64,000 nucleotides of DNA, taken from Cladocopium goreaui. Its lineage: Eukaryota > Sar > Dinophyceae > Suessiales > Symbiodiniaceae. Below the pieces are notes generated by a model, which was not told the origin of the DNA, did no database searches, and was given only the letters and a program-made list of their open reading frames with translations. This document shows positions 27,321 through 56,412 of the stretch, piece by piece. The translations under genes were made by a program, and so were the position numbers. The stretch lies in contig CAMXCT020000906.1 in the NCBI GenBank assembly GCA_947184155.2, positions 124,001-188,000 of the forward strand, given 5' to 3'. How positions within the stretch are numbered: position 1 is the stretch's first letter; each line of letters opens with the position of its first letter.

Positions 27321-27325
27321 GGGCT

Positions 27326-36671: not shown

Positions 36672-36719
36672 GTGCATCAGCAAGTCTCAGACAGTTCTGG
36701 TTGACTCATGCTGATGCAC
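36672..36719. repeat. TCAGACAGTTCTGGTT hairpin 1
   Basis: The left arm GTGCATCAGCA-AGTC pairs with GACT(CA)TGCTGATGCAC around the exact 16-nt core: 15 bp with a 2-nt bulge. Confidence 0.85.
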
Positions 36720-36736
36720 TTCTTTTTCAAATTCAA

Positions 36737-36765
36737 AGCTCAGACAGTTCTGGTTGCAATACAAG
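36737..36765. repeat. TCAGACAGTTCTGGTT core with right arm only
   Basis: The exact core is followed by GCAATACAAGAATCAAAG as in the 39390 copy, but the left arm is missing. It looks like a recombined half-copy. Confidence 0.6.
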
Positions 36766-36880
36766 AATCAAAGTTAAACATCAAATAACTAAGCTGCTCA
36801 CAAAGGTGTTGACGCACGCCGATGCACTACGGTGAGACAGGATGCACTACGGTGAAACTGAATGTCTCAAGCAAAGATGC

Positions 36881-36929
36881 GTGCATCAACAAGCCTCAGA
36901 CAGTTCTGGTTGACTCATGCTGATGCACT
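36881..36929. repeat. Hairpin 2, degenerate arms
   Basis: Like hairpin 1, but the left arm has two changes (GTGCATCAACA, AGCC). Confidence 0.65.
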
Positions 36930-37084
36930 TCATTTTCAAATTCAATTGACATCAGTGGCTACCGCGGTTGATCTTTATCTGGGCACCTCCACGGACACGA
37001 CCTTAGGTCCAGCATCTCTGTGAACGCAACAAGTTTTTCCACATTGCATCACAAGTGGTGTTGAAGATATCCCGAACACTGCCG

Positions 37085-37330
37085 ATTGGGATCTCAGTCT
37101 CGACGAACGTAAAACTATGCCTTTCATGAAAAGAGTCAATTAACGACCTTTCAAGTCCTCTGCTCCATTCATCCGCGCGCCTGTAATCACGGTCACATAG
37201 CTGACACCATCAGAGGACATAGGACATTCCTTGAAAAGACATAGGTCGCATTATGCAAAGAGGTTTGAGTGGAAGGGCAAAAAATAGAAGGGTAAAATCC
37301 AACTACCATGCTATGTAATATGAACAGGTA
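37085..37330 (-). pseudogene. Gene fragment duplicated from the 38.5-kb pseudogene
   Basis: About 245 bp shared with 38450-38697. The minus strand reads CDRDYRRADEWSRGLERS and then SFTFVETEIPIG without the 4-bp deletion present in the other copy, and stops after RSQRCWT near 37004. Unknown protein. Confidence 0.5.
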
Positions 37331-37558
37331 CTACCACTCAACAGGTAATCGATCCCATCCCAGGGCCCTGACTCGATGCAAACCTAGCTGCACAGACCAA
37401 CAATGCGGACCTGCAAAGCATTCAAGGACTATGGCTAATGACTGCGACAGATCACATTCATTGATGTTCCGGCACAACTATATGCGCAAAAGGATCTGAC
37501 AGCTTTATTGATCTTCGATGAAGTCTCAGACCGGGCTGTTTGACTCACGCAAAGATGC

Positions 37559-37606
37559 GTGCATCAACAAGTCTCAGACAGTTCTGGTTGACTCATGCTG
37601 ATACAC
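37559..37606. repeat. Hairpin 3, degenerate arms
   Basis: Exact core with arms GTGCATCAACA-AGTC and GACTCATGCTGATACAC. It lies about 135 bp after the stop of the pseudogene ending at 37741. A second, decayed core lies near 37523-37540. Confidence 0.65.
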
Positions 37607-37740
37607 TTCATTTTCAAATCGTCTTTGCGATGATATGATTACATGTATCCAAATGCTTGTTTCACCGGTGTCAGGTAACCGGAAAGGTCTATAAAGCCCC
37701 AAGGCAGGACGGACCCACTAATCTACAGCTTGCTCATTCC

Positions 37741-38640
37741 TCAGTTCCTAGTAGGACGCTCGTGAGCCGGCTCATTAGCAACCATGGGGTCGATGATCTG
37801 ATAAAGCAATCTTCCCTGCTCATCACGTTCTTCTGGAGCAAGAAATCCATACCAACGAAACTCACCAGGTCGAACCTTCTCCAGTACATTTGCTTCCATC
37901 TTTCGAAAGTAACCCAGAGCAGTAATTTCGACCTGGAGGAAGCTGTAGTCGAAATAGTTGTAAGTGTGACACCATTGAGCATCTGTGGCACGCCCAAGAG
38001 GCGCATGTGTCGCACTCAAATCTATCCTGGAGGTATAGATGTCTGGCTGGACTCTATGATGCGTCCGCAGTTCCTCCATCTGTGGTGGAGCGAGAGCTAT
38101 CCACAGACGAATGCTATCCTCCATTGAGTTCAAACCGAGATTACTCCCCAAACTCAGCAAAGAAAATGGCTTCGCGACATCGATGCAAACATGCAACTCA
38201 ATTGCCTTTCCATGTGGATTGATACTCACTGCAAATCTCGGTCCATGTTGATCTCTTGACTGTGAACTCTGCCGCTTACAGTTCTTCCAAACCAACGACC
38301 TACCAATCTACAGTCACCTTCCAGTTCAACATGACAACTCCACACGTCAAAACTCACAGTTTCACTACAGCAAATCAAACAAAAACAAACTGTCCATCCG
38401 TCACATGAGCAACGCAGACCCACATGCTGCTGAAGATACTTGGATGGCATTGGGATCTCAGTCTCGACAAACGTAAAACTATGCCTTGCATTAAAAGAGT
38501 GAACGACCTTTCAAGTCCTCTGCTCCATTCATCCGCGCGCCTGTAATCACGGTCACATAGCTGACGCCATCTGAGGACATAGGACATTCCTTGAAAAGAC
38601 ATAGGTCGCATTATGCAAAGAGGTTTGAGTGGAAGGGCAA
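37741..38640 (-). pseudogene. Unknown protein pseudogene with at least two frame breaks
   Basis: Coding sense moves between frames: MRPMSFQGMSYVL to GLERS; then HSFTFVETEIPMPSKYLQQ to HSQEINMDRDL (with CSCDGWTVCFCLICC); then AVSINPHGKAIELHVC to the stop at 37741. The first break matches a 4-bp deletion relative to the 37.1-kb copy. The C-terminal part, NVLEKVRPGEFRWYGFLAP then GRLLYQIID, resembles VLEKLRAIGEGWYQYFGPL then GTLLYTIDA in the protein at 56630-56995, so the two are related. No known domain. Confidence 0.5.
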
Positions 38641-39389
38641 AAAATAGAAGGGTAAAATCCAACTACCATGCTATGTAATATGAACAGGTACTACCATGCC
38701 TCGATCTGCCAAATTCGTATCCTGTCTCATGAGGGCGGTGTGCTTTGGGGCCCCCAACCAAGGTGGTTTGCCATCTCCCCAAAAAGAAGCATAAACGGGC
38801 GGACCTGGCAGGCGGCGAACGTTTCTGGGCTGGGAGAAGCACAGTATTACAATACGATATAATGGGATGGCTTTTGTGCTCCTTTCCATGTGGTTTTTGG
38901 GTTTAGGGTCCATGTGACTTGAATTGAAAGTCTTTTCTTAACATTCATACATCCATCTCTATATATATTACCACTTATACATCCAAATTCCATCTCATAA
39001 CTTTATTTCTATCTCAATATATAATGTATCGATTTGTTTCTTTGTGGTAGCAGCCTATCCATGTAATCCATCCCATCCCGGGGCCCTGACTCGATGCAAA
39101 CCTAGCTGCAGAGTCCAACAGTGCGGACCTGCAAAGCATTCAAGGACTATGACGAATGACTGCGACAAATCAATTTCAGTGATGTTCAGGCACAACTATA
39201 TGCGCAAAAGGAATTAGCAACTTTATTGATCTTACTACCACTGCCTCGATCCGCCAAATTCGTATCCTGTCTCATGAGGGCAGTGTGCTTTGGGCCCCCC
39301 CAAGCAAGGTGGTTCTGGCAGGCGGCGGACATTGCTGGCCCCCTCAGCATTTCGACGGAGGGGTGAAGTTCGTACCATGTATTTGTACT

Positions 39390-39423
39390 TTGTATTGCTC
39401 AGACAGTTCTGGTTGCAATACAA
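39390..39423. repeat. TCAGACAGTTCTGGTT hairpin 4
   Basis: TTGTATTGC / GCAATACAA, 9 bp perfect arms around the exact core. Confidence 0.85.
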
Positions 39424-40395
39424 GAATCAAAGTTAAACATCAAATAACTAAGCTGCTCACTAAGGTGTTGAGAAGACAAAGAACCGACCTGGCCCCCCGC
39501 CAGGGTGGGGGAACCATCCTATCCCCTGAAAGTCTTATAGGAGCAGGCCATAATTATATACCTATTATCAAAGTCTGAAGCTAAGGCCTAAGGCTGTTAA
39601 TCTGAATATTGTAGAGATCTAAGACGACGACTCGACTATGTGCATCTCATCACAATACGTGACCAAGTGTGTAATGTCATGGCGAGCCTAACTAAAACTT
39701 GTGTCAGTCCCGATATTGTCCTGCAGAACCTTGAAGCGATCACTGCCCGCAGACTATCGCAGCTGTTGCATGCCATTCAGCATGGTCGAGTCCACTGGCA
39801 CTGTGCTGCAAAACGATAAGTGCGCGCCATGCAAGCGCGCCGTTCCAGTGAGAAGTAGATCTGGGTGGCCTCCTCGAAGTCGCTCAGTTGGAAGTAGTGG
39901 TTCGTATGTTTGTTGTCGGATCGCATCCAGGAATTGGTCGTGCAGCCTTGCGCAAGTTCGGAAGCTGCCACTGTGTCCTCACCGCATCGATGAGGAACTC
40001 TCCCTGGTCAAGGCTCGCCTATGGATCTCCTAGTCCAAGGCCCAAAGCTCCTATACTCCTTGCTCACCCTTTTCTTCACACATCTGTGATGACCTTGGTG
40101 ATCGCGGTGATGTTCTTCTCCAGGAAATAGCTAGTTACTTGCTTCTTCAAAATGACTCCGTTAACCATCAATTTGAAGCCACTTGATCAATCTCAAACAA
40201 GTTCAATGGACCATCTCAAAGGGGATCACTTTGAAGAAGCAACAGAAAATAGTTTTTGCTTTTCTTTACTTAGAAAAGTCCGTCCGTCCAGAGAGAGGCC
40301 TATCTGCCCACAACAAGAGATCGGGGGGAACCGGGGTTACTGGCCCTGCAGGCCAAAGGTTATCATAGATTCAATTGGGAGGAAGTGACAATAGA

Positions 40396-40427
40396 TGTAC
40401 CATGGCTGATGGCAAGGCCATGGTACA
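40396..40427. repeat. Perfect palindrome TGTACCATGGC / GCCATGGTACA
   Basis: 11-bp arms with the 10-nt loop TGATGGCAAG. Confidence 0.85.
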
Positions 40428-41254
40428 CCATCACCTCCATTGAAAGTCATAAGACCTGAGGAGGAGCCTGGACACGTATACCTTATATCGTGCGTGCGTG
40501 TGTCGATGGGATGGCGTGGTGAAGTCCCATTTCCATGTGAACCGGAAAAAAAGGAAATGATCTTACTCGAAACCAGCATGTATAAACATGTCATGAGGGC
40601 TGTGTGCTTTGGGGCCCCCCAACCAAGGTGGTTTGCCATCTCCCCAAAAAGAAGCATAAACGGGCGGACCTGGCAGGCGGCGAACGTTTCTGGGCTGGGA
40701 GAAGCACAGTATTACAATATGATATAATGGGATGGCTTTTGTGCTCCTTTCCATGTGGTTTTTGGGTTTAGGGTCCATGTGACTTGAATTGAAAGTCTTT
40801 TCTTAACATTCATACATCCATCTCTATATATATTACCACTTATACATCCAAATTCCATCTCATAACTTTATTTCTATCTCAATATATAATGTATCGATTT
40901 GTTTCTTTGTGGTAGCAGCCTATCCATGTAATCCATCCCATCCCGGGGCCCTGACTCGATGCAAACCTAGCTGCAGAGTCCAACAGTGCGGACCTGCAAA
41001 GCATTCAAGGACTATGACGAATGACTGCGACAAATCAATTTCAGTGATGTTCAGGCACAACTATATGCGCAAAAGGAATTAGCAACTTTATTGATCTTAC
41101 TACCACTGCCTCGATCCGCCAAATTCGTATCCTGTCTCATGAGGGCGGTGTGCTTTGGGCCCCCCCAAGCAAGGTGGTTCTGGCAGGCGGCGGACATTGC
41201 TGGCCCCCTCAGCATTTCGACGGAGGGGTGAAGTTCGTACCATGTATTTGTACT

Positions 41255-41288
41255 TTGTATTGCTCAGACAGTTCTGGTTGCAATACAA
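41255..41288. repeat. TCAGACAGTTCTGGTT hairpin 5 (duplicate of hairpin 4)
   Basis: Copied with the 1.87-kb duplication. Confidence 0.85.
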
Positions 41289-42260
41289 GAATCAAAGTTA
41301 AACATCAAATAACTAAGCTGCTCACTAAGGTGTTGAGAAGACAAAGAACCGACCTGGCCCCCCGCCAGGGTGGGGGAACCATCCTATCCCCTGAAAGTCT
41401 TATAGGAGCAGGCCATAATTATATACCTATTATCAAAGTCTGAAGCTAAGGCCTAAGGCTGTTAATCTGAATATTGTAGAGATCTAAGACGACGACTCGA
41501 CTATGTGCATCTCATCACAATACGTGACCAAGTGTGTAATGTCATGGCGAGCCTAACTAAAACTTGTGTCAGTCCCGATATTGTCCTGCAGAACCTTGAA
41601 GCGATCACTGCCCGCAGACTATCGCAGCTGTTGCATGCCATTCAGCATGGTCGAGTCCACTGGCACTGTGCTGCAAAACGATAAGTGCGCGCCATGCAAG
41701 CGCGCCGTTCCAGTGAGAAGTAGATCTGGGTGGCCTCCTCGAAGTCGCTCAGTTGGAAGTAGTGGTTCGTATGTTTGTTGTCGGATCGCATCCAGGAATT
41801 GGTCGTGCAGCCTTGCGCAAGTTCGGAAGCTGCCACTGTGTCCTCACCGCATCGATGAGGAACTCTCCCTGGTCAAGGCTCGCCTATGGATCTCCTAGTC
41901 CAAGGCCCAAAGCTCCTATACTCCTTGCTCACCCTTTTCATCACACATCTGTGATGCCCTTGGTGATCGCGGTGATGTTCTTCTCCAGGAAATAGCTAGT
42001 TACTTGCTTCTTCAAAATGACTTCGTTAACCATCAATTTGAAGCCAGTTGATCAATCTCAAACAAGTTCAATGGACCATCTCAAAGGGGATCACTTTGAA
42101 GAAGCAACAGAAAATAGTTTTTGCTTTTCTTTACTTAGAAAAGTCCGTCCGTCCAGAGAGAGGCCTATCTGCCCACAACAAGAGATCGGGGGGAACCGGG
42201 GTTACTGGCCCTGCAGGCCAAAGGTTATCATAGATTCAATTGGGAGGAAGTGACAATAGA

Positions 42261-42292
42261 TGTACCATGGCTGATGGCAAGGCCATGGTACA
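42261..42292. repeat. Perfect palindrome, second copy
   Basis: Duplicate of 40396-40427 in the second tandem unit, unchanged. Confidence 0.85.
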
Positions 42293-43056
42293 CCATCACC
42301 TCCATTGAAAGTCATAAGACCTGAGGAGGAGCCTGGACACGTATACCTTATATCGTGCGTGCGTGTGTCGATGGGATGGCGTGGTGAAGTCCCATTTCCA
42401 TGTGAACCGGAAAAAAAAGGAAATGATCTTACTCGAAACCAGCATGTATAAACATGTCATGAGGGCTGTGTGCTTTGGGGCCCCCCAACCAAGGTGGTTT
42501 GCCATCTCCCCAAAAAGAAGCATAAACGGGCGGACCTGGCAGGCGGCGAACGTTTCTGGGCTGGGACAAGCACAGTATTACAATATGATATAATGGGATG
42601 GCCCTTGTGCTCCTTTCCATGTGGTTTTTGGGTTTAGGGTCCATGTGACTTGAATTGAAAGTCTTATCTTAACATTCATACATCCATCTCTATATATTAA
42701 CACTCATACATCCATCTCTATTTCATATTGCTATTCTATCTCAATATATAATATATCGATTTGTCTCCTCGTGGTAGCAGCCTATCCATGTAATCCATCC
42801 CATCCCGGGGCCCTGACTCGATGCAAACCCAACTGCAGAGACCAACAGTGCGGACCTGCAAAGCATTCAAGCACTATAACTAATGACTGCGACAGATCAC
42901 ATTTGTTGATGTTCAGGCACAACTATATGCGCAAAAGGAATTGGCAGCTTGATTGATTTTCGATTGAGTGTCAGACCGATCTGCTTGACTCACGCCGATG
43001 CACTATGGTGAGACAGGATGCACTACGGTGAAACTGAATGTCCAGCAAAGATGCGC

Positions 43057-43102
43057 GCATCAACAAGTCTCAGACAGTTCTGGTTGACTCATGCTGATGC
43101 AC
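43057..43102. repeat. Hairpin 6, imperfect arms
   Basis: Exact core with GCATCAACA-AGTC and GACTCATGCTGATGC, about 30 bp after the stop of the gene ending at 43133. A decayed core (GTCAGACCGATCTGCTTGAC) lies at about 42970. Confidence 0.7.
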
Positions 43103-43132: not shown

Positions 43133-43669
43133 CTACCGCGGTCGATCCTTATCTGGGCACCTCCATGGCGCTGACCTTATTTGCAGCATCTGTGTGAATG
43201 CAGCAAGATCTGCTAGCCAGTCAGCTGGCTCCTCCGAGACATCCACAATGCAGTCGTTGCAGTGCCCGCAAATGTAACATCTCTCTGCCGCCATTGTCTT
43301 CCAAACATGTTCTATGCTTCTAGCTGTTTTTGAGATATATTTCATATGATGATGATGAAAGTGTGGTATTGTCACGGTCATGACCTTTGCCCAGCCAGCA
43401 GAGACTTGCTGAGATGTGTAGCTATCGTCTGACTCGTTTGGATCGCCGGGTTCTTGGTTGGCACCGCAGCAAATGCACATGGTGTCCGCCTCCTTCGAAT
43501 GATACATTTTCTTCAAAACAGCTGGCCAACCAGCTTTTACCAGATAGTGCTCGGTCTTTGGTTGAAACGAATACTGCTTGGCCAATTCAGAGCTCCTAGG
43601 AACAAATGCAAGAATGTGTCGTAGAAGCTGCTCACCGAAGACATCCGCGTTTGCCATGGCAGACCACAT
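43133..43669 (-). CDS. Unknown 178-aa protein with two cysteine clusters
   Basis: ATG at 43669 (MWSAMANADVFGEQLLRHIL). Cysteine motifs are CICCGANQEP (about 69) and CYICGHCNDC (about 131), possibly metal binding, with a histidine run (HFHHHH) between them. The opening LRHILAFVPRSSELA is helical. It lies 46 bp downstream of the 199-aa gene on the same strand and is followed by core hairpins. No family recognised. A single-exon reading is assumed; flanking exons could be missed. Confidence 0.55.
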   Translation of the reverse strand: MWSAMANADVFGEQLLRHILAFVPRSSELAKQYSFQPKTEHYLVKAGWPAVLKKMYHSKEADTMCICCGANQEPGDPNESDDSYTSQQVSAGWAKVMTVTIPHFHHHHMKYISKTARSIEHVWKTMAAERCYICGHCNDCIVDVSEEPADWLADLAAFTQMLQIRSAPWRCPDKDRPR

Positions 43670-43715
43670 TTAAATAACAAGATAATTTATGTGAGTTTGT
43701 TTGTTGTGGAAACTG

Positions 43716-44315
43716 TCATGTCCAACGATGTGGTCGCTGCCGCCGCGTATCCTTCAACACCAAGACCCATAATGGGCTGTCATCATCTCTTGCGTCTTCA
43801 TTGTAAAACAGAATGTAATACAGTGTGAAATCGACCGTGTGCTCACGCATCCAAGATAGTGGCAAATGGCCCCAGAAATGGTGGCCCATGTCTGGAGGGC
43901 CGTTCATGAAGACTTGGTCGTAGATGTACAATTCTCTCGAACCAGCGTCCATCCAGTCATGGAAGGATAGCAACAGCGCATCATTCAAATCAACTGAATT
44001 TGTTTGAAACGACGTATACTGCAATCTCCCCGCAGCTGCAAAGCAATCGGCTGCCATGCGTGACTTGATGTTAGTACAGCTACAACATTTTGGGGACCTC
44101 AGTCGATTGCTAGAAACTTTCGAAGGTGGACTTGCATTCTTGCAATCTTTACTTGAATAATGGGCTTTTCGATAGTGTAGTCCACATGTGAGCAATAATC
44201 TGCAGCTTCCTGATGTCACATAAGCAAGCGTGAATATAAACAATGCCATCCTCTCCCGGGGCCCTGGCCTGATGAAGACCCAGCTGTGTAGAAGAACCGA
44301 AGACCTTCTAAGCAT
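43716..44315 (-). CDS. Unknown 199-aa protein
   Basis: Start at ATG 44315, although the first about 70 residues (LLTCGLHYRKAHYSSKDC) are less convincing than the rest and may be intron or leader. The C-terminal 120 residues look like a folded protein: LNDALLLSFHDWMDAG, YIYDQVFMNGPPDMGHHFWGHLP, then DFTLYYILFYNEDARDDDSPLWVLVLKD. I do not recognise the family. It is the only pair in this cluster (with 43133-43669) without a core hairpin between genes. Confidence 0.5.
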   Translation of the reverse strand: MLRRSSVLLHSWVFIRPGPRERMALFIFTLAYVTSGSCRLLLTCGLHYRKAHYSSKDCKNASPPSKVSSNRLRSPKCCSCTNIKSRMAADCFAAAGRLQYTSFQTNSVDLNDALLLSFHDWMDAGSRELYIYDQVFMNGPPDMGHHFWGHLPLSWMREHTVDFTLYYILFYNEDARDDDSPLWVLVLKDTRRQRPHRWT

Positions 44316-44489
44316 TCAAGCACCAAGACCTGCTGTGACAGATTACATTGAGTAATACTTTCGTATTGGCATGCTTTTGTATTAGATCTCATGGTTTTCT
44401 GCACAGATACTTTCCACTTTGTGTGAAAACTAAAGCAATGAGCAACTTTTTGTATCTTTTTGTCATGATGAAGTTGGGTGTAGCTGCCA

Positions 44490-44515
44490 AAGTCTCAGAC
44501 AGTTCTGTTTGACTT
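44490..44515. repeat. Hairpin 7 (short arms)
   Basis: AAGTC / GACTT around TCAGACAGTTCTGTTT (one core change). Second of the pair after the phosphatase gene. Confidence 0.65.
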
Positions 44516-44555
44516 CTGCCGCTGGCTTATGGTGAAACAGGATACATGATGCATT

Positions 44556-44597
44556 CATCAGCAAGTCTCAGACAGTTCTGGTTGACTCATGCTGATG
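44556..44597. repeat. TCAGACAGTTCTGGTT hairpin 8
   Basis: CATCAGCA-AGTC / GACT-(CA)-TGCTGATG, 12 bp, exact core, 64 bp after the stop of the phosphatase gene. Confidence 0.85.
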
Positions 44598-44660: not shown

Positions 44661-45392
44661 CTAGGCTGTGCCATGTTGGAAATCCTGGCACCACTCAGAA
44701 CGCTGTTGTTCCACCATCCACAATGCATCCAAAACATAGTCTCGATGGCGCCATGGGCGAAGAGATGGCCTCTTTGTGAGCAACAGCTTGATCGCATCCT
44801 CCGCGGTGTAGTCATAGGCCACAATAAGCCAAGCACACAAAATCGCAGCGCTGCGATTGATCCCACCAAAGCAATGAAACAAAATGTGCATGGGCTTGTC
44901 TTTGTTGACGGCAATGATTGACTGTTGCCACAGTCGAAGGCATATGCTTTTCCAGCTGGAGAGGCATTTCCTTTGCAATGCTTCGTGCCGTTCCAAGTCG
45001 CGGCCCGGCTGCTTCACTGTGATGTCATCCAACTGACAATGAATATGAACTACATCGCGCTCACGGAAATAATCTTTCCAATTGGATGGAGTTCCATGTG
45101 ATCGCATCTCAGTCTCACACATGGAAACAACCACTGTTACGGAGACGCCAAGTTCTTCTTTGATGACATCCAAGTTGCAAGCGGCTTGCAAGCTGCCAAG
45201 CAGCACACTTGCCCTTTCTGTAGGCTTGCAAACAAGGCAACCATCCACAGGCCATGCAGCTATGGATGAGAAGCTGTAAGTGTGTTGGTAGATGATTTCG
45301 TCCAAGGCCGTCCATGAAGCAGTATCATTGTACGCATCCTGGATGTCCTTTTGCCTGGCTTGCGACCACTTCAGCATCACACGTTGCGCCAT
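44661..45392 (-). CDS. Dual-specificity protein phosphatase-like protein
   Basis: The frame is open to 45449 but that start is GTG; the first ATG is at 45392 (243 aa). The phosphatase signature HCFGGINRSA (HC-x5-R-S) places the catalytic cysteine near residue 174 and the arginine near 180. LDDITVKQPG, about 50 residues earlier, can supply the general-acid aspartate. After the signature, AAILCAWLIVAYDYTAEDAIKLLLTKRPSLRP matches the helical region of dual-specificity phosphatases. It would remove phosphate from Ser/Thr/Tyr. The N-terminal 100 residues are not recognised. Intact by sequence. Two core hairpins follow its stop. Confidence 0.8.
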   Translation of the reverse strand: MAQRVMLKWSQARQKDIQDAYNDTASWTALDEIIYQHTYSFSSIAAWPVDGCLVCKPTERASVLLGSLQAACNLDVIKEELGVSVTVVVSMCETEMRSHGTPSNWKDYFRERDVVHIHCQLDDITVKQPGRDLERHEALQRKCLSSWKSICLRLWQQSIIAVNKDKPMHILFHCFGGINRSAAILCAWLIVAYDYTAEDAIKLLLTKRPSLRPWRHRDYVLDALWMVEQQRSEWCQDFQHGTA

Positions 45393-45557
45393 GGGTGAGC
45401 CTACCTGAGAACACCTGTGTCTTTTACCTGAGAAGAAAAAAGCTGCCACATCGTATATTCAAGCTGTGGAGTGAAGCACCTGGAAGCGACAAGACCAAGT
45501 TCATCAAGCAGGCAAATCTTTTGTGCAACTCAAGCACGAAACGCAAATTTGCTGTCA

Positions 45558-45596
45558 CGCATCGAAACTCAGACAGTTCTGGTTGCTTCACATGCG
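45558..45596. repeat. TCAGACAGTTCTGGTT hairpin 9
   Basis: CGCAT-c-GAA-a-C / G-c-TTC-ac-ATGCG around the exact core; interrupted arms. Confidence 0.65.
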
Positions 45597-45654
45597 AAAC
45601 TTGCAACAAGAAATAATACTACGGAAACCTGAAGCAGTACTGGTGTGCTCGCTT

Positions 45655-45684
45655 GTGAAGCTCAGACAGATCCGGTTGCTTCAC
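45655..45684. repeat. Hairpin 10
   Basis: GTGAAGC / GCTTCAC perfect arms around TCAGACAGATCCGGTT (variant core), 76 bp after the stop of the RPA-like gene. Confidence 0.8.
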
Positions 45685-45759
45685 GCGCGATGCGTTAAAA
45701 ACCAGTGAATTCTGCCAGGTTCGTAGTTGCTAATTGCATGCTGTCTTGAAAGCCAGCTG

Positions 45760-46977: not shown

Positions 46978-47966
46978 ATATGGACCAATGTGGAAGAAAG
47001 GTGGCTAGAAGAATGGTAACAACTTTCCCAGGCCTCAGCTTCTTCATTGCTTGCGCTCAGGCAGCACGCACCGACTGTGGCACAGCAGGAAATGAACTTC
47101 TCCAAACCATCTGAAGTGAGGCGATGGGCGCCCGTCTGCAACCACGGTGTGGAGACCGCTTCACCTCTGTCATCGGACAACTGCTTCAAAACATTCACTC
47201 TTTCTCCCACTGGGTTGATGTGCAAAGCAGCAAACATATTCTTGCCGCTATCCATCCAATGCTCGGCACTTGCTTCCACGCTTCCATCCAACTTCTTTGA
47301 CAACAGAGCATTGTCAATCTGAACAACATCGCCATTTGTCACTGTCACACACTGGCTCGTCATACGATGCCCCCATACGTTCACCGCAACTTCGTTCCTT
47401 GATTCATCTTTTAACCAGAGAGTCACTTTGGGCACCTTAGTTGGCGGTGTTTCCTTCAAGGTCACCTTCCCGATCACATCGGCACGCTCATACCCTTGGC
47501 AATGTTCTGTCAAAATCCCAAAGTTGGACCTCGCCACTGGAAACATATTGCGGAGAACCGCCGCAGCTGGATGGGATTCTGCGATTGGCGTCGCTTTCCC
47601 TGTTTTCGACACATCCGCCGAAAAGCCAGCCAGAAATGTCGAATGCTGCTTAATCTCTATCTGTGTGACCTGCAGAAATTTGGGTTGAAAAAACACTTTG
47701 GCTCTATCCTGAACTTCTCCTTGGGTGGAGCCTCTGATCTCTGCATACAATCCTTGCCCCTTTTTGTCTACCAAACGCACAATAGCTTTCCACCATGCTT
47801 TTTTGCCGGCGGCTTCAATTTTCTTGACATCGTGGTAAATGGGACGTAGCATCACTGCCACAAACTTGGCATTGTTCTTTGTGACTCTTTCCAGCGTCAC
47901 TTCTTGCAAATTCATGTTGGCGGAAGAACTCTGCGGGAGCAAAGCAGCCAGTGCGGCGAGGACCAT
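46974..47966 (-). CDS. RPA-like protein, N-terminal OB-fold part (probable first exon)
   Basis: The frame is open from 48095 (GTG). ATG codons at 47966 (MVLAALAALLP) and 47915 (MNLQEVTLERVTK) are better starts. Two OB-like stretches are visible: WWKAIVRLVDKKGQGLYAEI, and VIGKVTLKETPPTKVPKVTLWLKDESRNEVAVNVWG, the latter close to RPA70-type DNA-binding domains. The coding frame loses sense at the end (HSSSHLSSTLVHM). The stop TGA falls inside ATGTGAGTGTG, a canonical GTGAGT donor, so an intron of roughly 50-100 bp to the next frame is likely. The joined protein would be about 700 aa, close to RPA large subunits. Confidence 0.6.
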   Translation of the reverse strand: MVLAALAALLPQSSSANMNLQEVTLERVTKNNAKFVAVMLRPIYHDVKKIEAAGKKAWWKAIVRLVDKKGQGLYAEIRGSTQGEVQDRAKVFFQPKFLQVTQIEIKQHSTFLAGFSADVSKTGKATPIAESHPAAAVLRNMFPVARSNFGILTEHCQGYERADVIGKVTLKETPPTKVPKVTLWLKDESRNEVAVNVWGHRMTSQCVTVTNGDVVQIDNALLSKKLDGSVEASAEHWMDSGKNMFAALHINPVGERVNVLKQLSDDRGEAVSTPWLQTGAHRLTSDGLEKFISCCATVGACCLSASNEEAEAWESCYHSSSHLSSTLVHM

Positions 47967-48539
47967 GTACGTATCACAGCAGATGTACGAGTAGTGGCAA
48001 CAATAGATGCATCGTTCGGGCGAATTAAATCTGTTTGAAACTAAGTATATCACATACTCTTGGCAGCTGCGCAGAAATTCGTTGCCAGGTGTCACATGTT
48101 ATTAATGTAGTTATAACATTTCACTTCTGCGTGCTGATATCTCGATCTTGTTCCATGCCACGTGGGACGCATGGGTTTCAGAGCGGCTAATGACGGCAAA
48201 TGAAACTCAAGCAGAAACAATCCTTTCCATGCATAGTCCTGAAAATGATAAACCAACAGACACTACCGAATGCTATCCTTTTTCTACGCTGCTGTTACAG
48301 TCTGAGAAAGTAAACTGTTTGTCACTAAGAAGAACACGCATTCTCGGGCATCACGCATTGTTCCTTCCACAGCCTGTTTGCGAATGAAAATCAAGTACAA
48401 ACAATGCTCTCACAGCAGCATTCTGAAAGGAAGAAACCAACAGACACTACCAATTGCAATCTTTTTTTCTACGCTGCTGTTGCATTCTGAGAAAGTTCTG
48501 TTTGCAGAAGACAGCTACAGATATATTACAAGCTACAGA

Positions 48540-48571
48540 TGTATTGCTCAGACAGCTCTGGTTGCAATACA
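48540..48571. repeat. Hairpin 11
   Basis: TGTATTGC / GCAATACA perfect arms; core TCAGACAGCTCTGGTT. Confidence 0.85.
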
Positions 48572-48615
48572 AGTAGCAAGTTTGAAATCAAATGGCATTT
48601 AGACAACAGGAGGCT

Positions 48616-48658
48616 ACAGTGGCATCGCTCAGACAGTTCTGGTTGCAATGCCAACTGT
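48616..48658. repeat. TCAGACAGTTCTGGTT hairpin 12
   Basis: ACAGT-GGCAT-c-GC / GC-a-ATGCC-a-ACTGT, 12 bp; 70 bp after the stop of the gene ending at 48728. Confidence 0.85.
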
Positions 48659-48727: not shown

Positions 48728-49318
48728 TCATGGCAGGACGTTGCGATTGGGCAGAGCTTTGTGACAGCTAAGCCTCATGATATATGGTTGCCTCGTATTC
48801 CGAAAAGCCACTAAGTGACGCTGGGTACCTGTTTCCTGAGCTCGCGCCCAATGAGGACGATGTTCTGCAAGCAATTTGCTGATACTCTGGTAATTGCGAA
48901 GGATGAAAGTATCCCCAGTGCAATCGCTCCAACGAAGATCCATATCATCAGGCGCAACATAGGAGCCCCAGGTCTTGTAGATGTACTCACCAATACAGCA
49001 AAGAAGATCACTGACTGAGGTGATTTGAATTTGACTAGGTTTCAAAAGGCATGAATATGTGAACAGTGCCAATTCTTCCGGGGCACGCAGGTCTGGAACG
49101 CATTCATTAGATGTGGCATCCATGGAGTCGTCTCTTCTCTCAGTCAGAAGTTCTTTGGTTTGATTGATATCAATCAACAGTAAAACTCTGCGGCTGTTGC
49201 GAAGACCTGGCATATAAGGTTCCATGTGTCTGCGAAAATGATCATGAGGAAGAGCAGGATTGGGGTTTCCCCATATCGGACGATCATCATCACGCGAGCG
49301 TGATCGTTCTCGCGCCAT
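48728..49318 (-). CDS. Unknown 196-aa protein
   Basis: Starts at ATG 49318 (MARERSRSRDDDRPIW, an RS-like basic start). The rest is non-repetitive: NSRRVLLLIDINQTKELL, LALFTYSCLLKPSQIQITSVSDLLCCIGEYIYKTWGSY, DLRWSDCTGDTFILRNYQSISKLLAEHRP. It looks like a globular protein but matches nothing I know. The stop is followed by a pair of core hairpins. Possible further exons upstream are not visible (49319-50070 holds no convincing frame). Confidence 0.5.
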   Translation of the reverse strand: MARERSRSRDDDRPIWGNPNPALPHDHFRRHMEPYMPGLRNSRRVLLLIDINQTKELLTERRDDSMDATSNECVPDLRAPEELALFTYSCLLKPSQIQITSVSDLLCCIGEYIYKTWGSYVAPDDMDLRWSDCTGDTFILRNYQSISKLLAEHRPHWARAQETGTQRHLVAFRNTRQPYIMRLSCHKALPNRNVLP

Positions 49319-50070: not shown

Positions 50071-50113
50071 ACAGTGGCATCGCTCAGACAGTTCTGGTTG
50101 CAATGCCCACTGT
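50071..50113. repeat. TCAGACAGTTCTGGTT hairpin 13
   Basis: ACAGT-GGCAT / ATGCC-c-ACTGT plus GC/GC; exact core. Confidence 0.85.
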
Positions 50114-50166: not shown

Positions 50167-50209
50167 ACAGTGGTATTGCTCAGACAGTTCCGGTTGCAAT
50201 GCCAGCTGT
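50167..50209. repeat. Hairpin 14
   Basis: ACAG-TGGTATTGC / GCAATGCCA-g-CTGT with one G-T pair; core TCAGACAGTTCCGGTT; 18 bp after the stop of the 444-codon frame. Confidence 0.85.
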
Positions 50210-50226
50210 AATTTCCCGTTGCAAAT

Positions 50227-51561
50227 TTACGCCGCTGCTGAACTTGCGGAAGACATTTTTAGCCTCTCTGTGGTAAGCCACGATGAAATCCACTGCCATC
50301 GCACATGCAGAATTGCGATAGCCGTCGCTGCCAGATGGTCAATTTCTGTGTCAGACATCTCAAATTCATAAAAACACAATGTGGTACGCCAAGACATCTT
50401 CTCGATCTCTGCATCCTCCGTTTCATTCTTTCCAGCTCTGGGACGCAACCACTTCTTCAATGCTTCAATGGCATCTAGGATCTTGTCTGCTTGCAAACCA
50501 TATTTGCAATGGTCACCATCTTCATCACCTTGGTGAAACCATCCAGCGTCAACGTGGCGAAACAGTCCAAGCACACGATCTGAATTAGCGAAGTTAAAGG
50601 CCGCTTCCTTTGAGCGCTCCCAACACTTGTGCTCAGCACGCTGCCTGTCTAGCTGACCGATGCGTTGAAGAGGCAGCATGTTGTGCACCAGTCGCAGCAA
50701 ATCTTGCACCACTCGAAACACATGAGGCTCCCGATTGACGTCAGGAATTTGCGCGCTTCGATGTGCTCTTCTTGATTTCTTGGCTCTTGTTTTTTCATAT
50801 GGCATCATTTGCTGCGAGCTTTCACGCTGCTCGTAGGTCACCGCCTGAGGACGATCTGGCCTTTGTGGTCGCGAAAAAAAACCACGCTGTCCCTGCACCA
50901 CCCGAAACTGCGACGTCAAATCGTCGAGACTCTGCTTCATCATGGAGTCTTGCCACTGACCCAAATTCAAACCAGACAAGATAGCTCCTACAGCTTCACG
51001 ACACACTTCACCCCAGGAGTCTTGGGCAATTCTGTCCCAAAAAATTGTGGCAATGTGTCCACTTGGATGCAGACAGCTTGTAATCTCAAACACTTCAGAC
51101 GAAGCATTCTGCGATGCTGCCGCCAAGTTTGCACCATGTCTTTTGCAGATGCCAATAGTTTCTTCTCCACGCAACATCAACAACTTCTTTGGTGCAGCCA
51201 AGATAAACAAATGCCATTGATCAGAAGCATCCTCTTTGGGACTGCATTTCACCAACACTTCCACCTCAGAAGCGAGATCAGTTCGTGTCAGTCTGCATAC
51301 CAATAAACTGGACACTTCTAAGAGCTCTGGACAAATTGTCGTGCCCCATTGATTGATTTCCCGAGGTGGTGGTGGATCATCTGCCCCACTTCTTGATTTC
51401 ATGCTTGCATCTGTGGATGGCGCATTGACAGCTGCTGCACCACGCACTTCGGCTGCAGATGTCCTTGGCAACAAATTTTGGGTGAAAGGATACGGAAAGT
51501 TCGCCTCCTTGTCTCCCGTCTCAGGCTTCACTTGACGAATCTCCCTTTCCAGCTCTTGCAA
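50227..51561 (-). CDS. Unknown protein of about 390-440 aa
   Basis: The frame has 444 codons from TTG at 51561, with the first ATG at 51402; the N-terminus is uncertain and may lie in an upstream exon. A proline-rich start (DDPPPPREINQWG) is followed by a mixed alpha/beta region (VSSLLVCRLTRTDLASEVEVLVK, WHLFILAAPKKLLMLRGEETIG). A basic segment (YEKTRAKKSRRAHRSA) follows, then a helical C-terminus (RVVQDLLRLVHNMLPLQRIGQLDRQ). No family recognised. It sits between the kinase-like gene and a hairpin pair on the same strand. Confidence 0.5.
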   Translation of the reverse strand: MQELEREIRQVKPETGDKEANFPYPFTQNLLPRTSAAEVRGAAAVNAPSTDASMKSRSGADDPPPPREINQWGTTICPELLEVSSLLVCRLTRTDLASEVEVLVKCSPKEDASDQWHLFILAAPKKLLMLRGEETIGICKRHGANLAAASQNASSEVFEITSCLHPSGHIATIFWDRIAQDSWGEVCREAVGAILSGLNLGQWQDSMMKQSLDDLTSQFRVVQGQRGFFSRPQRPDRPQAVTYEQRESSQQMMPYEKTRAKKSRRAHRSAQIPDVNREPHVFRVVQDLLRLVHNMLPLQRIGQLDRQRAEHKCWERSKEAAFNFANSDRVLGLFRHVDAGWFHQGDEDGDHCKYGLQADKILDAIEALKKWLRPRAGKNETEDAEIEKMSWRTTLCFYEFEMSDTEIDHLAATAIAILHVRWQWISSWLTTERLKMSSASSAAA

Positions 51562-51652
51562 ATAAGATGGACTTGCCGATGGAAACCTCCGCGCACGTTG
51601 TCAAGAGGTCTGGGTACTTGCTATACCATTAGAGCTAAGTAAAGACACACGC

Positions 51653-52633
51653 TCATATGTAAAGATGTGAGAAGACATCATATGAGAAGTAACTGTCAAC
51701 AGGCGAAAATGAAAAGCATAACCATATTATGCTATACCATATGCTACCAAGACACGTCCAGCGTTCTTGGCCCATTGTGTCAGTCACCAAAGCTCCGCGT
51801 ATCAAAGTTTGCACTTTTTCATACGGAGCTTGCCAGCCATGGGCGATCGCATCCCTTTGGTGGGGCTGCATCAGGTTGTGATCTTGGTTGACCATCGTCT
51901 GCACAATCTTTTTGAAAGCACCTCCAATGTTTACATGCTCTGTTTTGTCTCGCAGTCCATCCAGATCGCAAAATACCCAGACTGGAGCTGAATGTGGCTC
52001 CCTTCCTTCTGCCAGGCCGACATTATCAATCTTGGCATCCCAAGGTATCACTTCCTGATGCACGAACCGGAACAGCAGACGCAAAATCTCGACCTGCATC
52101 TGAACATAGGATTCCCATGCCTGAGGCGTGCATTGCATTGTCGTGAAGAATGATGTCAATTTCGATTTGCCGGTGAAGATCAACTTCTCTGCAAGCAGGA
52201 TAGATGCGTCACCGTCTCGCAGTGAAGAATCTCCTGTGAAAAAATCACCATGTATCATACTGGTCTTCTCCAAGAAGATTTGCCCGAAACAATACATCAT
52301 TTCATTCTCCACTTTGTCTTTGTACTTGTCAAATCTATGCTGCTCTTCTCCCCACTCACGCTTGGTTCTGGCATCTGTATTCATCTTGACTACAAAATTG
52401 TAGTTGTCAAGCATGAACACATCTTTGAAGGCGCCGCTACCACAGCGAGTAACATTGTCTTGGATCGTGATGTCTTTCTGTCTCTGCGTCCTATCCCGGA
52501 GAACCAAAACAATGGTAGCACATTTAATCTTCTCTTGGCTTTTTCTTTTTTGAATTTTGACCCAATCCGTCTCAGTGACCTGCAGCCGCCCTCTCACCAG
52601 CTGGAAGTCTCTATACGTAGCCACAGTGGACAT
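51653..52633 (-). CDS. Protein kinase-fold protein, divergent (possibly pseudokinase)
   Basis: The frame is open to 52738, but the first ATG is at 52633 (MSTVATYRDFQLVRG), giving about 326 aa. A glycine-loop-like CGSGAFKDVFML (about 65) is followed by FVVKMN with a possible ATP-binding lysine. Later, FVHQEVIPWDAKIDNVGLAEG resembles the catalytic loop (HRDxKxxN), with D and N kept but HR replaced by PW. VWVFCDLDGLRD resembles DFG with DLD in its place. These are features of a kinase fold with altered catalytic motifs. Substrate unknown. A 72-bp hairpin lies immediately upstream. Confidence 0.6.
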   Translation of the reverse strand: MSTVATYRDFQLVRGRLQVTETDWVKIQKRKSQEKIKCATIVLVLRDRTQRQKDITIQDNVTRCGSGAFKDVFMLDNYNFVVKMNTDARTKREWGEEQHRFDKYKDKVENEMMYCFGQIFLEKTSMIHGDFFTGDSSLRDGDASILLAEKLIFTGKSKLTSFFTTMQCTPQAWESYVQMQVEILRLLFRFVHQEVIPWDAKIDNVGLAEGREPHSAPVWVFCDLDGLRDKTEHVNIGGAFKKIVQTMVNQDHNLMQPHQRDAIAHGWQAPYEKVQTLIRGALVTDTMGQERWTCLGSIWYSIIWLCFSFSPVDSYFSYDVFSHLYI

Positions 52634-52752
52634 GGCAGTGATCGAGCGGGTCGTCGAAGCACGTGTTGCAGCTTCAAGTGATAACACATTGATAACATGT
52701 TGATACAAATCATTGATGTGAAAGAAGTGTAATGTCACCGAAAAACAAAGGA

Positions 52753-52824
52753 GTCACACGTGCCTGAACCGCACCCGCCTTTCAGACAGTTCCGGTTAAG
52801 ACAGGCCGTTCCAGCACGTGTGAC
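52753..52824. repeat. Hairpin 15 with long outer arms
   Basis: The perfect outer arms GTCACACGTGC / GCACGTGTGAC (11 bp) and inner GCCT / AGGC enclose the core TCAGACAGTTCCGGTT. It ends about 120 bp before the kinase-like gene's ATG. Confidence 0.85.
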
Positions 52825-53251: not shown

Positions 53252-53300
53252 GCAACAGATGCGGCACGCTCAGACAGTTCTGGTTGCATGCCGCTGTTGC
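53252..53300. repeat. TCAGACAGTTCTGGTT hairpin 16
   Basis: GCAACA-(gat)-GCGGCA-c-GC / GC-a-TGCCGC-TGTTGC; 14 pairs around the exact core. Confidence 0.88.
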
Positions 53301-53361
53301 TTTGACAGATACCTGCCACCTTTCAATGCGAAAGTATACCTATTTTCACATAATTCCCAAA

Positions 53362-53400
53362 CAGTAGCAACACGCTCAGACAGCTCTGGTTGCATGCTAC
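53362..53400. repeat. Hairpin 17
   Basis: AGTAGCA / TGCTACT perfect outer arms plus GC/GC; core TCAGACAGCTCTGGTT; 20 bp after the stop of the gene ending at 53420. Confidence 0.85.
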
Positions 53401-53419
53401 TACTGCCTGGGCGTGAAAG

Positions 53420-54407
53420 TTACAAGTTGCAAGATGACAACCAGTCCTCAATCTCACTTGGAATCTGGCGAGTCATTTTCCCATCTTCATCTGTCTGTGC
53501 CCATTGCCTCACACCCTTCGAAGATGACGTGCAATGCAAATCAAAATTTGCTAACGAGCGATAATATTTCAAACACTGCAAGCAATCAGCTTGCCCGGCA
53601 TATAGATATTCATATTCCTCTTGTCTTTCTGGCGTCATCTTTCGTTTCTTTTTGTGCTTGGTATCAAGTTCTGGACAATGAGGTGCAGCACTGCATTGCT
53701 CCAATTTCTCATAAGCTTGTATGGAACTTGCTGAGTCACTTTGGACGCTTGATTCTGAATTGCATCTCGCAGCGTGGATTCTTTTCCCAGGAGCCTGTGA
53801 CGGTGCATGTGGCAGCTTTGACCAAAAAGTAGGTTTTCCACTGCTGCTGGCAGTTGCGTCATTACACAATGCTCGCCACCCTTCCAGATCTCTTGCAATC
53901 ATGTTCAAGCGTGTTGCATATCGTGCAGAAGCATTGACGGCTATGTCCTGTATCTTTCGTTCAACTTCGAAAAGAGAAACATCTCGAGGAGACATCTGTT
54001 TTGCCCCAAGCAGCATGAGGAGGTATCGAAACTTTGCGAGAAGAAGACAAGCGCTTTCATGTTCTTCCACATGCAACCAAATCTGCATACTCCAGCATTA
54101 GCCCCTGCAATTCCCGCAAGTTTTCTTCGATGCGATCATGTCCACGATTTCCGGACCATTGGATCAGTCGCTGAGCGGCTTTTTCCACCTCTGGGAGTGT
54201 GGCATCGTCAATGTCAGACTCAACATTCAATTCCCGCAGCAACGCCTGGAATTTCAACTTTTGAAACTCTGCCAAAGTTCTTTGTGCTGTTGCAACATTG
54301 CCTCCATGGTTGCATCCAAGCAAGGTTCTAGTTACCACTGACGCTCTACTACCCTGTCTTTTTGCTGTTCCAACATTGCGTCCATGGCTTTTTCCAAACA
54401 ATTCCAA
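53420..54407 (-). CDS. Unknown protein with C-terminal CLxC...RQWA...WL domain, paralogue 1
   Basis: Two overlapping frames: 54407-54057 (MELFGKSHGRNVG, then LAEFQKLKFQALLRELNVESDIDDATLPEVEKAAQRLIQW) and 54088-53420 (222 aa). The first has clear helical coding character and then ends 30 bp into the second, so the gene probably uses both, through an intron or a frameshift near 54060-54100. The C-terminus YLYAGQADCLQCLKYYRSLANF, then RQWAQT, then IPSEIEDWLSSC is shared with the protein at 55245-55850. The missing second cysteine pair (CTSSSKG against CVSCGKT) suggests weakened metal binding. Function unknown. Confidence 0.5.
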
Positions 54408-54708
54408 ACAAGCTTCTAGTTACCAAAGTCCACATGTTTTGGCTGCTTCAATGTGGTATCACTTCTCCAACAGCACAGGTTGTAGCAATCACTGCTTGAG
54501 CCATAGTACCGGATCGGACGCTGAAAAGCTATCAGATCCAAAGCTTGCAAGACCACAATTCAAACACCTCCAAAGATGCAGCCTGAGTTGCAAGCAGAGC
54601 TGTTGCCGTGCAACCACCATCTCCCAGAAGACCACCAAAGCAGACGAAAGAAAGTTCGCACATTGCCAATATGCTGGCAGCGACGACAAGAATGAATCGG
54701 TTCAAGAT

Positions 54709-54767
54709 AAGAGAGATGAATTGCTTGACGGCATCATTGAGATGCCGTCAAGCAATTCATCTCTCTT
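54709..54767. repeat. Perfect 27-bp inverted repeat with 5-nt loop
   Basis: The left arm starts AAGAGAGATGAATTGC and ends GACGGCATC; the loop is ATTGA; the right arm is its exact reverse complement. It lies in a gene-free stretch (54408-55244) downstream of the 205-aa gene, where I see nothing else. Confidence 0.9.
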
Positions 54768-55244
54768 CTCTTTAACTGGACTTTTCTGAGATGGAGGCCA
54801 GTGTCAGTGACAATTTAGTCCAGGGACCTGTGTGTTGAAAGTGCAAACCAAAGAAAGTTGGCAAATGGCAACAGCATGACGAAGTCAACAAACCCATGTT
54901 TTTATCTCATTCAATGTACCGCTCTGAAAAACTGCCACTGCATTGTAAACAGGTTTCTGAGCGCAGCGCGTGAGATTGCCATGCTTTCTCCTCCTAAACT
55001 GCACAACTTCAAGCAACCATGTAGGCTTCGTGACCACAATAAATGCAAAATGCTCCATCAACTTTTTTTGACGACCAAACAATGTAGACACCATGAAGGT
55101 GATGCAACTGCATTCATCGATTTTCTCCCTTTCTGCCACTCGATCCCTGTACCATCAAAGCACTCTGAAACTGCTACATCACCTTTCAGGTGAGAGCATG
55201 TGTTGTAACTCACACGGCAACATCATACTAGAACAACCAGCACA

Positions 55245-55850
55245 CTACAAATCGTGTGCTTGAAGCCAAGCTTCAACATCCAATGGTATATCAACAGCCT
55301 GTCTCCGGCGTCTGCTCCTGCTCGTCGTGGCCCATTGACGGGCCGTTTTTCCGCAGGACACACATTTCACATTAAATCCTTCAATCGAACTATAAAATTC
55401 CATGCAAGTCAGGCAATGAGCTTGAGCAGCATACAGAAACATGTACTCCATTTTTTTTCGACTGTCAAGACTTCCATGTTTCGCCTCGAAATCGTCAATA
55501 TGAGGCGCCAAGGAACATGCTGGTGCACCGTTGTCTGCTTGTGGCTGTTGTTGAGATGAAGTTCCTGCACCTGTCTGGTGCTCAGCACCATTGCCCGTTC
55601 CTGCATTCCAGTCTGGTGGCAGCTTTCTCACCAATTCGTCCCACGCATTGTTGAAGCGCTGATTGAATGCATTGCACGCTTCCTTCTTGTCATCATCCAC
55701 ACATTTGTCAAGGTGATTTTTGCGCAACAACTCCTTCCGCCGGATCTTCAAGATTTGAAAGTCTTCAAACGTAACAGCATACCAACTAGATTTCTGCAGC
55801 TGCAAAACTTCAAGTAACCAACTGATCTCAGCGGTAGCAGCACTCCACAT
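55245..55850 (-). CDS. Unknown protein with C-terminal CLxC...CVSC...RQWA...WL domain, paralogue 2
   Basis: The frame runs from 55862 (GTG) with the ATG at 55850 (MWSAATAEISWLLEVLQLQ), about 201 aa. An N-terminal helical region (FEDFQILKIRRKELLRKNHLDK, FNQRFNNAWDELVRKLPPDW) is followed by a Gln/Gly-rich linker. The C-terminal domain reads YMFLYAAQAHCLTCMEFYSSIEGFNVKCVSCGKTARQWATT, then IPLDVEAWLQAHDL. Two C-x-x-C pairs suggest a zinc ribbon. It matches the C-terminus of the gene 1.5 kb downstream on the same strand, so the two are tandem paralogues. Family not recognised. Confidence 0.55.
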   Translation of the reverse strand: MWSAATAEISWLLEVLQLQKSSWYAVTFEDFQILKIRRKELLRKNHLDKCVDDDKKEACNAFNQRFNNAWDELVRKLPPDWNAGTGNGAEHQTGAGTSSQQQPQADNGAPACSLAPHIDDFEAKHGSLDSRKKMEYMFLYAAQAHCLTCMEFYSSIEGFNVKCVSCGKTARQWATTSRSRRRRQAVDIPLDVEAWLQAHDL

Positions 55851-55952
55851 GGCCAAGGCCACAGACGAATTTCAAGTAAGCAACTTTCAATCAGTTTCGG
55901 TTAAGGAAGCAGCAATGTCTGAAAACCTGTGCTAATTTGAAAGCAAGCACCA

Positions 55953-55976
55953 CCCTTCGGACAGTTCCGGTTAGGG
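55953..55976. repeat. Hairpin 18, variant core
   Basis: CCCT / AGGG around TCGGACAGTTCCGGTT. The core's inner stem is CGGA/TCCG in place of CAGA/TCTG. Confidence 0.75.
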
Positions 55977-56049
55977 CAGCTACAATGTGACAACATATGG
56001 CAACATGAGCAATGTCTGAAAACCTGTGCTAATTTGAAAGCATGCACCA

Positions 56050-56073
56050 CCCTTCGGACAGTTCCGGTTAGGG
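56050..56073. repeat. Hairpin 19, variant core
   Basis: Tandem copy of hairpin 18 with the same CGGA/TCCG inner stem. Confidence 0.75.
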
Positions 56074-56376
56074 CAGCCACAATGTGACAACATATGGCAA
56101 CATGTAAGCGAATGTTGAGTTCAAATATGATGTCTATCACTTTCCAATTGAGCAGCAGTGGGAAGCGGCTGGAAAAGACTCATCGCCATATGATAACTGC
56201 TGCTCATGATGGCACAAACACTTATGCAAGGCAAACTTATCGGAGCGCGCCTTTTTCCAGACAACCGACAGCTTGAGATGTCGCTTGAGATGTCCAACAG
56301 TTCCGTAGCACCAACAATAAAGAAATAAAGATATGTGAACCTATTTGCACCAATTTTGTCTGCCAGACAAGCGACT

Positions 56377-56412
56377 GCAATCTTGCTCAGACAGTTCTGG
56401 TTGCAAAATTGC
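56377..56412. repeat. TCAGACAGTTCTGGTT hairpin 20
   Basis: GCAAT-c-TTGC / GCAA-a-ATTGC around the exact core; about 220 bp after the stop of the 121-aa frame. Confidence 0.85.

Follow-up and report, generated by a model that had tools for sequence, protein, structure and literature searches.

A stretch of 64,000 nucleotides from the dinoflagellate Cladocopium goreaui (contig CAMXCT020000906.1 of assembly GCA_947184155.2, positions 124,001 to 188,000 of the forward strand; the whole stretch is called the window here and numbered from its first letter) carries an array of genes in which one small hairpin is repeated. The carrier of the hairpin is, by its terminal sequences and domains, a large Helitron2/Helentron-like rolling-circle transposon of C. 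goreaui. That a hairpin family with a constant 16-nucleotide (nt) core and complementary arms exists here had been claimed from the letters of the sequence, and it proved real: a covariance model trained on 24 hairpins returned 24 copies between 36574 and 56414, all on the minus strand and the weakest with an E value of 8.4e-4, and a search of the whole window up to an E value of 1 gave no match beyond these.

Hairpins and genes of the array

The copies are listed below with their covariance model scores, numbered 1 and 2 in order from the stop codon where two follow the same gene; ORF stands for open reading frame.

36574..36613, minus, hairpin of the AB lineage in the tail of the array (28.9 bits)
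36675..36714, minus, hairpin of the AB lineage in the tail (47.5 bits; fold -28.8 kcal)
36728..36767, minus, hairpin with weak arms, a chimera whose two lineages meet at the core (32.2 bits)
36884..36923, minus, hairpin of the AB lineage in the tail (45.8 bits)
37514..37553, minus, weak hairpin, the second 3' of the stop of ORF 37741 (21.4 bits)
37562..37601, minus, hairpin, the first 3' of the stop of ORF 37741 (50.8 bits)
39387..39426, minus, hairpin in a 1.86-kb repeated unit (47.0 bits)
41252..41291, minus, hairpin in a 1.86-kb repeated unit (47.0 bits)
42959..42998, minus, hairpin 2, 3' of gene A (24.2 bits)
43058..43097, minus, hairpin 1, 3' of gene A (50.8 bits)
44483..44522, minus, hairpin 2, 3' of gene B (43.4 bits)
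44556..44595, minus, hairpin 1, 3' of gene B (47.5 bits)
45557..45596, minus, hairpin 2, 3' of gene C (38.4 bits)
45650..45689, minus, hairpin 1, 3' of gene C (41.5 bits)
48536..48575, minus, hairpin 2, 3' of gene D (45.6 bits)
48617..48656, minus, hairpin 1, 3' of gene D (48.2 bits)
50072..50111, minus, hairpin 2, 3' of gene E (50.2 bits)
50168..50207, minus, hairpin 1, 3' of gene E (45.9 bits)
52770..52809, minus, long-arm hairpin (52782) upstream of gene E (44.6 bits; fold -41.8 kcal)
53258..53297, minus, hairpin 2, 3' of gene F (49.5 bits)
53364..53403, minus, hairpin 1, 3' of gene F (41.3 bits; fold -38.1 kcal)
55945..55984, minus, hairpin in a 97-bp tandem unit upstream of gene G, 149 nt after the stop of a low-complexity ORF (36.1 bits)
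56042..56081, minus, hairpin in a 97-bp tandem unit upstream of gene G, 52 nt after the stop of the low-complexity ORF (39.1 bits)
56375..56414, minus, hairpin (56387) within the low-complexity ORF 56121-56648, downstream of a 123-aa ORF ending at 56630 (45.3 bits)

Duplicated units of 209 bp (window position 36738 and L042:4337-4794) have their junction at the edge of the hairpin core. The genes among which the hairpins are distributed are the following.

37741..38295, minus, ORF 37741, 184 aa, no Pfam match
43133..44315, minus, gene A, ORFs 43716-44315 and 43133-43669, which may be exons, no Pfam match
44661..45449, minus, gene B, dual-specificity phosphatase domain (PF00782, E 1.4e-10)
45760..48095, minus, gene C, two ORFs, probably exons, with weak OB-fold/RPA-like matches below the Pfam cut-offs
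48728..49318, minus, gene D, 196 aa, no Pfam match
50227..52738, minus, gene E, a protein-kinase-like ORF and a second ORF, probably exons
53420..54088, minus, gene F, 222 aa, its resemblance to gene G judged by eye only
55245..55862, minus, gene G, with no hairpin within 200 nt after its stop

A single relative of 603 aa (P0063) aligns with both ORFs of gene C, and parts of both ORFs of gene E lie within one protein, P0007, which one source names 'Protein kinase domain-containing protein'; gene E gave no Pfam kinase match. RPA-like genes occur in some Helitrons and Helentrons, according to excerpts of a published account (PMC4683698). The assignment of gene C to this OB/RPA group stayed weak, its matches falling below the Pfam cut-offs, and was not retained.

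Most hairpins follow a stop codon closely. Of the 22 that lie outside ORFs, fifteen stand no more than 200 nt downstream of the stop codon of an ORF at least 150 aa long, a zone that holds 15.6% of the non-ORF bases, and the two members of a doublet usually lie 29-84 and 128-176 nt past the stop codon. Two of these fifteen follow the low-complexity ORF 56121-56648, which is possibly no gene. Seen from the genes, 8 of 12 sense ORF stops are followed by a hairpin within 200 nt, and those at 55245, 51653, 46974 and 43716 are not; the stops at 51653 and 46974 probably mark the ends of exons, as both ORFs of the respective gene are spanned by a single relative (P0007 and P0063).

Structure and covariation of the hairpin

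The core, TCAGACAGTTCTGGTT, is present at 27 window sites with at most three mismatches and at 22 with at most two, and reads AACCAGAACTGTCTGA in the direction of the neighbouring genes, on the minus strand. In the 16 copies that were folded, the core forms a CAGA/TCTG stem with a 4-nt loop and an AAC/A internal loop, and the flanks make an outer stem. The consensus in gene sense is AAC-CRGA-NCUG-UCYG-A, in which a conserved 4-bp stem (C-R-G-A/U-C-Y-G) closes an NCUG loop and stands over the asymmetric AAC/A internal loop. Among the hairpin copies the 16-nt core is nearly invariant.

An Rfam scan of the window gave no match at the gathering threshold, and membership in a known Rfam family was rejected; the sub-threshold matches were mostly microRNA models on an unrelated palindrome at 54.7 kb. 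This palindrome (54704-54760), whose arms of about 26 bp match perfectly around a 5-nt loop, has no core and lies between genes G and F. Sites of N1-methyladenosine (m1A) were also considered as an explanation of the core and discarded: the dinoflagellate m1A motif is NNCA in the part of the report consulted (PMC11549392), and we infer that it is not retained in the CCGG copies. Literature searches, at the level of titles and abstract openings, gave no description of this hairpin. The earlier statement that no dinoflagellate element of this kind is known must be qualified in that the carrier is a recognisable Helitron2/Helentron-like transposon.

The original prediction had further held that the arms are different in each copy and that their complementarity exceeds chance. 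All six arm pairs that it quoted are present in the sequence, and the second statement was borne out. Among the 22 copies with at most two core mismatches, 19 pair at six of six adjacent arm positions, two at five and one, the chimera at 36740, at four. Summed over 25 copies, arm complementarity amounts to 369, whereas 5000 re-dealings averaged 263 and never exceeded 323. Tests of single copies against shuffled arms were a weaker result, with p at most 0.05 in 13 of 25 and above it in the other 12. At 21 exact cores found in viral contigs, six of six positions pair in none and five of six in two, with uninterrupted stems of at most 1 bp; these cores have no arms, a structured 20-mer has no match in the viral contigs, and a viral element was rejected as the source.

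The claim that arms differ in every copy needed correction. The window arms, as grouped by us, form about seven distinct lineages, copies sharing their arms because modules were duplicated. Many hairpins sit inside homologous 3' modules, one of which is common to a PIF1-bearing region and genes E and D and another to genes A and B and ORF 37741. Mean arm identity is 0.67 within doublets (n = 9) and 0.29 between modules (maximum 0.5).

With 24 distinct hairpins, 93.1% of the cells are paired and covariation reaches 0.688, compared to 0.214 with shuffled and at most 0.203 with slid arms. Because many copies are duplicated modules, the test was repeated with one hairpin per arm lineage, seven from the window and two from contig C194. 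These nine representatives, which were picked for good arms, a choice that favours pairing, and whose lineages may be related deeper down, gave 98.9% paired cells and a covariation of 0.811, compared to 0.264 shuffled and at most 0.225 slid. Complementarity therefore holds across lineages, and duplication, which might have accounted for all copies, does not by itself explain the pairing. One pair of the core stem covaries as well (A-U, G-U and G-C). On the sense strand, G-U exceeds A-C in the arms by 84 to 22 in 72 distinct hairpins (four of 76, with stems shorter than 3 bp, being excluded) and by 37 to 6 in 26 selected hairpins. Selection on the pairing of the arms, one of the two explanations offered originally, is supported by the covariation in both sets.

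The carrier transposon and the distribution of the hairpin

The copy of the carrier that holds the array spans from 35286 to a cut at about 57060 and has the following landmarks.

35286..35289, minus, 3' terminus of the element (CTAG), the next host base being T; this end is common to 13 copies, two of them in the window, with T after all
35452..35971, minus, tandem repeat of 16 bp close to the element's 3' end (TRF), with related sequence in other copies
57060..57063, minus, 5' limit of the window copy; relatives on C194, C6051, C2756 and C4922 extend further upstream

The element is bounded by an asymmetric terminal inverted repeat, CCCGAGAGCG, whose 3' copy lies inside the element end. At eight of eight loci the 5' terminus begins with TCCCGAGAGCG directly after a T; at the other end the terminal repeat CGCTCTCGGG is followed by CCATCCGTCGTCTAG in 13 copies, and the element finishes with CGCTCTCGGGCCATCCGTCGTCTAG before a T in 13 of 13; a fourteenth pattern row was excluded as a chance match with three mismatches. 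Insertion thus occurs between T and T (3' flank T in 13/13, T before TCCCG in 8/8); L043 and L045 are one insertion, hence the sites that are independent number 12 at the 3' end and 7 at the 5' end. Predicted folds of the termini are weak (-4.6 and -3.0 kcal). One search with joined flanks for an empty site returned only the filled C1001 site. Within the 5' terminus (8 loci) lies GTCTGAGC, an 8-nt sequence with which many hairpin cores also end, perhaps by chance.

Seven complete element copies measure 4.9-9.2 kb. The window copy is cut before the Rep/helicase part, whose domains are known from contig C194, which is 99.2-99.6% identical to the window downstream. C194 carries DUF6570 (E 3.3e-17) and Helitron_like_N (PF14214, E 7.2e-13), and its helicase rests on a PIF1 match (E 2.3e-4) below the Pfam cut-off.

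The asymmetric terminal inverted repeat, the T on both sides, Helitron_like_N and the shorter family copies are features shared with Helitron2/Helentron elements, and features of this kind mark Helitron2-type elements in the portion consulted of PMC5148889. The 3' repeat lies 15 nt from the end here and, in the same portion, 20-40 bp from it in the Fusarium elements (PMC5148889). The 3' end CTAG fits the CTRR of Helitron1. The ORFs scanned gave no match to a Helentron endonuclease, the whole RepHel gene not being delimited. We know of no described Helitron2 or Helentron with a repeated constant-core internal hairpin or with a set of phosphatase and kinase-like genes.

In 25 stretches of the same genome, some of which overlap each other or repeat the window, so that the matches are not independent copies, all 119 covariance model matches (E up to 0.1) are in gene sense; the 20 kb adjoining one element (L034, L035) gave no hairpin match. 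Exact matches to two structured 20-mers number 164 and 176 in the genome, and reversed controls have none. The core with at most one mismatch has 446 genome matches and 62 in the control, and some of the 446 are therefore chance. Six selected outlying hairpin sites (L070-L075) all match this element family; membership refers to the sites examined, most other genome copies lying outside the sample. Of 40 scored near-identical 3' ends, 27 are on contigs that both listings cover. A listed hairpin lies no more than 3 kb upstream of 12 of these and is lacking at the other 15, the listing resting on two exact patterns that miss variant hairpins. Mobile copies seem, from these 15 ends, not to need the hairpin.

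A second copy of the transposon 3' end lies on the minus strand at 13136 of the window, with only the last ~260 bp homologous; no core hairpin stands upstream of it before the array at 36.5 kb. A second, related family of RepHel-type ORFs, often of 308 aa, occurs on about 25 or more contigs, and the hairpin is absent from the one 501-base stretch of this family that was examined (C4887, best score 7.6 bits). Other features of the window are as follows.

15417..18305, 433-bp satellite, 6.7 copies, 98% matches
20970..29104, plus, 2116-aa ORF with a weak DEAD helicase match, then a 592-aa ORF
58725..63977, 1750-aa ORF with a reverse transcriptase domain (PF00078)

Proposed function and alternative explanations

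On balance, and with moderate confidence, we take the hairpins to be copies of one cis-acting RNA structure in transposon transcripts, typically in 3' untranslated regions (UTRs), that acts through one RNA-binding factor. The structure, its covariation, the single orientation, the usual position after stop codons and the membership in the element family at every site examined are observed; transcription of the DNA, binding by a factor and the step that it would control are inferred. Such a factor, encoded by the host or by the element, would read the loop and the internal loop on the messenger RNAs (mRNAs) of the element, with an outer stem that would be free in sequence and yet have to pair. 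Its binding could set 3'-end formation, stability or translation of these mRNAs together, and the one or two hairpins that most array genes carry just past the stop codon would give the mRNAs a common fate.

A cis-acting RNA element is favoured because a fixed loop and internal loop on a free stem, in genes that travel together, resembles an mRNA element read by a protein. In the iron-responsive element and the histone stem-loop, a fixed loop and bulge on a paired stem are read by a protein in the mRNAs of functionally linked genes. The present hairpin differs from both in sequence and geometry, lies on a transposon and has no Rfam match at the gathering threshold, and its reader protein is hypothetical. 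Post-transcriptional control is stressed in a review of dinoflagellate RNA-binding proteins, the parts of which that were consulted describe no such hairpin (PMC12787238). A bolder version, which we put forward tentatively, is a rolling-circle transposon with an RNA code of its own, in which a dedicated protein would read the hairpin, the replication, phosphatase and kinase-like genes would be one regulon, and the hairpin would be kept even in coding sequence.

Several observations weigh against an RNA element of 3' UTRs. Seven of the 22 window hairpins have no stop in the 200 nt before them, namely 52782 and six in the tail at 36.5-41.3 kb. The position is not universal, as 52782 and L062:5509 lie upstream of ORFs, and the hairpin at L062:7337-7376 falls in a linker of the RepHel gene that is likely coding, where it encodes the peptide QPELSE, found in 9 of 15 aligned proteins and twice in some. 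The core nucleotides of this copy are identical in C194 and C3591 and its arms differ; codon conservation was dropped as proof, since 113 of 187 identical residues share their codons overall and identical core codons are therefore weak evidence. Nine antisense ORFs of at least 150 aa are also present in the array and are taken as chance because the relatives and domains found, in a search that covered part of the ORFs, belong to sense ORFs. Across 10 copies of one 3' UTR the hairpins are conserved at 0.944 and 0.894 and the spacer at 0.851, a modest excess, and double changes within nine doublets are still paired in 4 of 8 cases, compared to 0-2 at other offsets, in what is a weak test. Finally, genes and element share their direction, so gene sense is inseparable from the transferred strand, and G-T beats A-C in DNA pairing too.

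In the main rival explanation the hairpins act as single-stranded DNA on the transferred strand, for example by giving Rep or a single-stranded-DNA-binding protein a site for binding, priming or termination. It would account for the single sense of all copies on a carrier with Helitron_like_N and DUF6570 domains, for the excess of G-T, for the likely coding copy and the two copies upstream of ORFs, and for the 8 nt GTCTGAGC that the 5' terminus shares, perhaps by chance, with many core ends. A DNA site would not be expected to lie after stop codons, however; the terminal sequences examined do not contain the full core, and the 15 of 27 3' ends that lack a listed hairpin also speak against it, with the limits of that listing. 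We regard this explanation as rather unlikely, and the coding copy does not decide between DNA and RNA. A private 3'-end processing signal, with the doublet marking the place where a factor cleaves or polyadenylates the transcript, comparable to the hairpin ends of Mimiviridae transcripts, fits the usual positions 29-84 and 128-176 nt after the stops. According to the part of PMC4402537 consulted, giant-virus mRNAs are polyadenylated at 3' hairpins. The Mimiviridae hairpins likewise follow the stop codon and have arms varying from gene to gene. Those hairpins are without sequence conservation in the same part (PMC4402537), whereas here a 16-nt core is fixed, and the doublets, the likely coding copy and the copies upstream of ORFs or otherwise outside 3' UTRs would suit a terminator poorly, which makes such a signal improbable.

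It is hard to credit that a few functionless hairpins merely spread through module duplication. Many copies are indeed duplicated modules, and several element copies that carry hairpins have no long gene ORFs, but compensatory change across nine arm lineages needs selection on pairing. The least credible explanation, barely worth retaining, is a small mobile fold-back element that would integrate at many sites and duplicate the adjacent DNA as an inverted repeat. This mechanism, offered originally as the alternative to selection, would yield a constant centre with site-specific arms; against it stand the single orientation, the regular distances after stop codons, the homologous 3' modules around the hairpins, the excess of G-U over A-C and the six outlying sites, every one of which matches a single transposon family.

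A structured RNA (or single-stranded DNA) element repeated through a Helitron gene array would, as far as we know, be novel among rolling-circle transposons. Given the strong covariation, the question of its role can be tested directly. In dinoflagellates, where post-transcriptional control is thought to be dominant, the hairpin would provide a defined cis-element and a way to find the protein that binds it.

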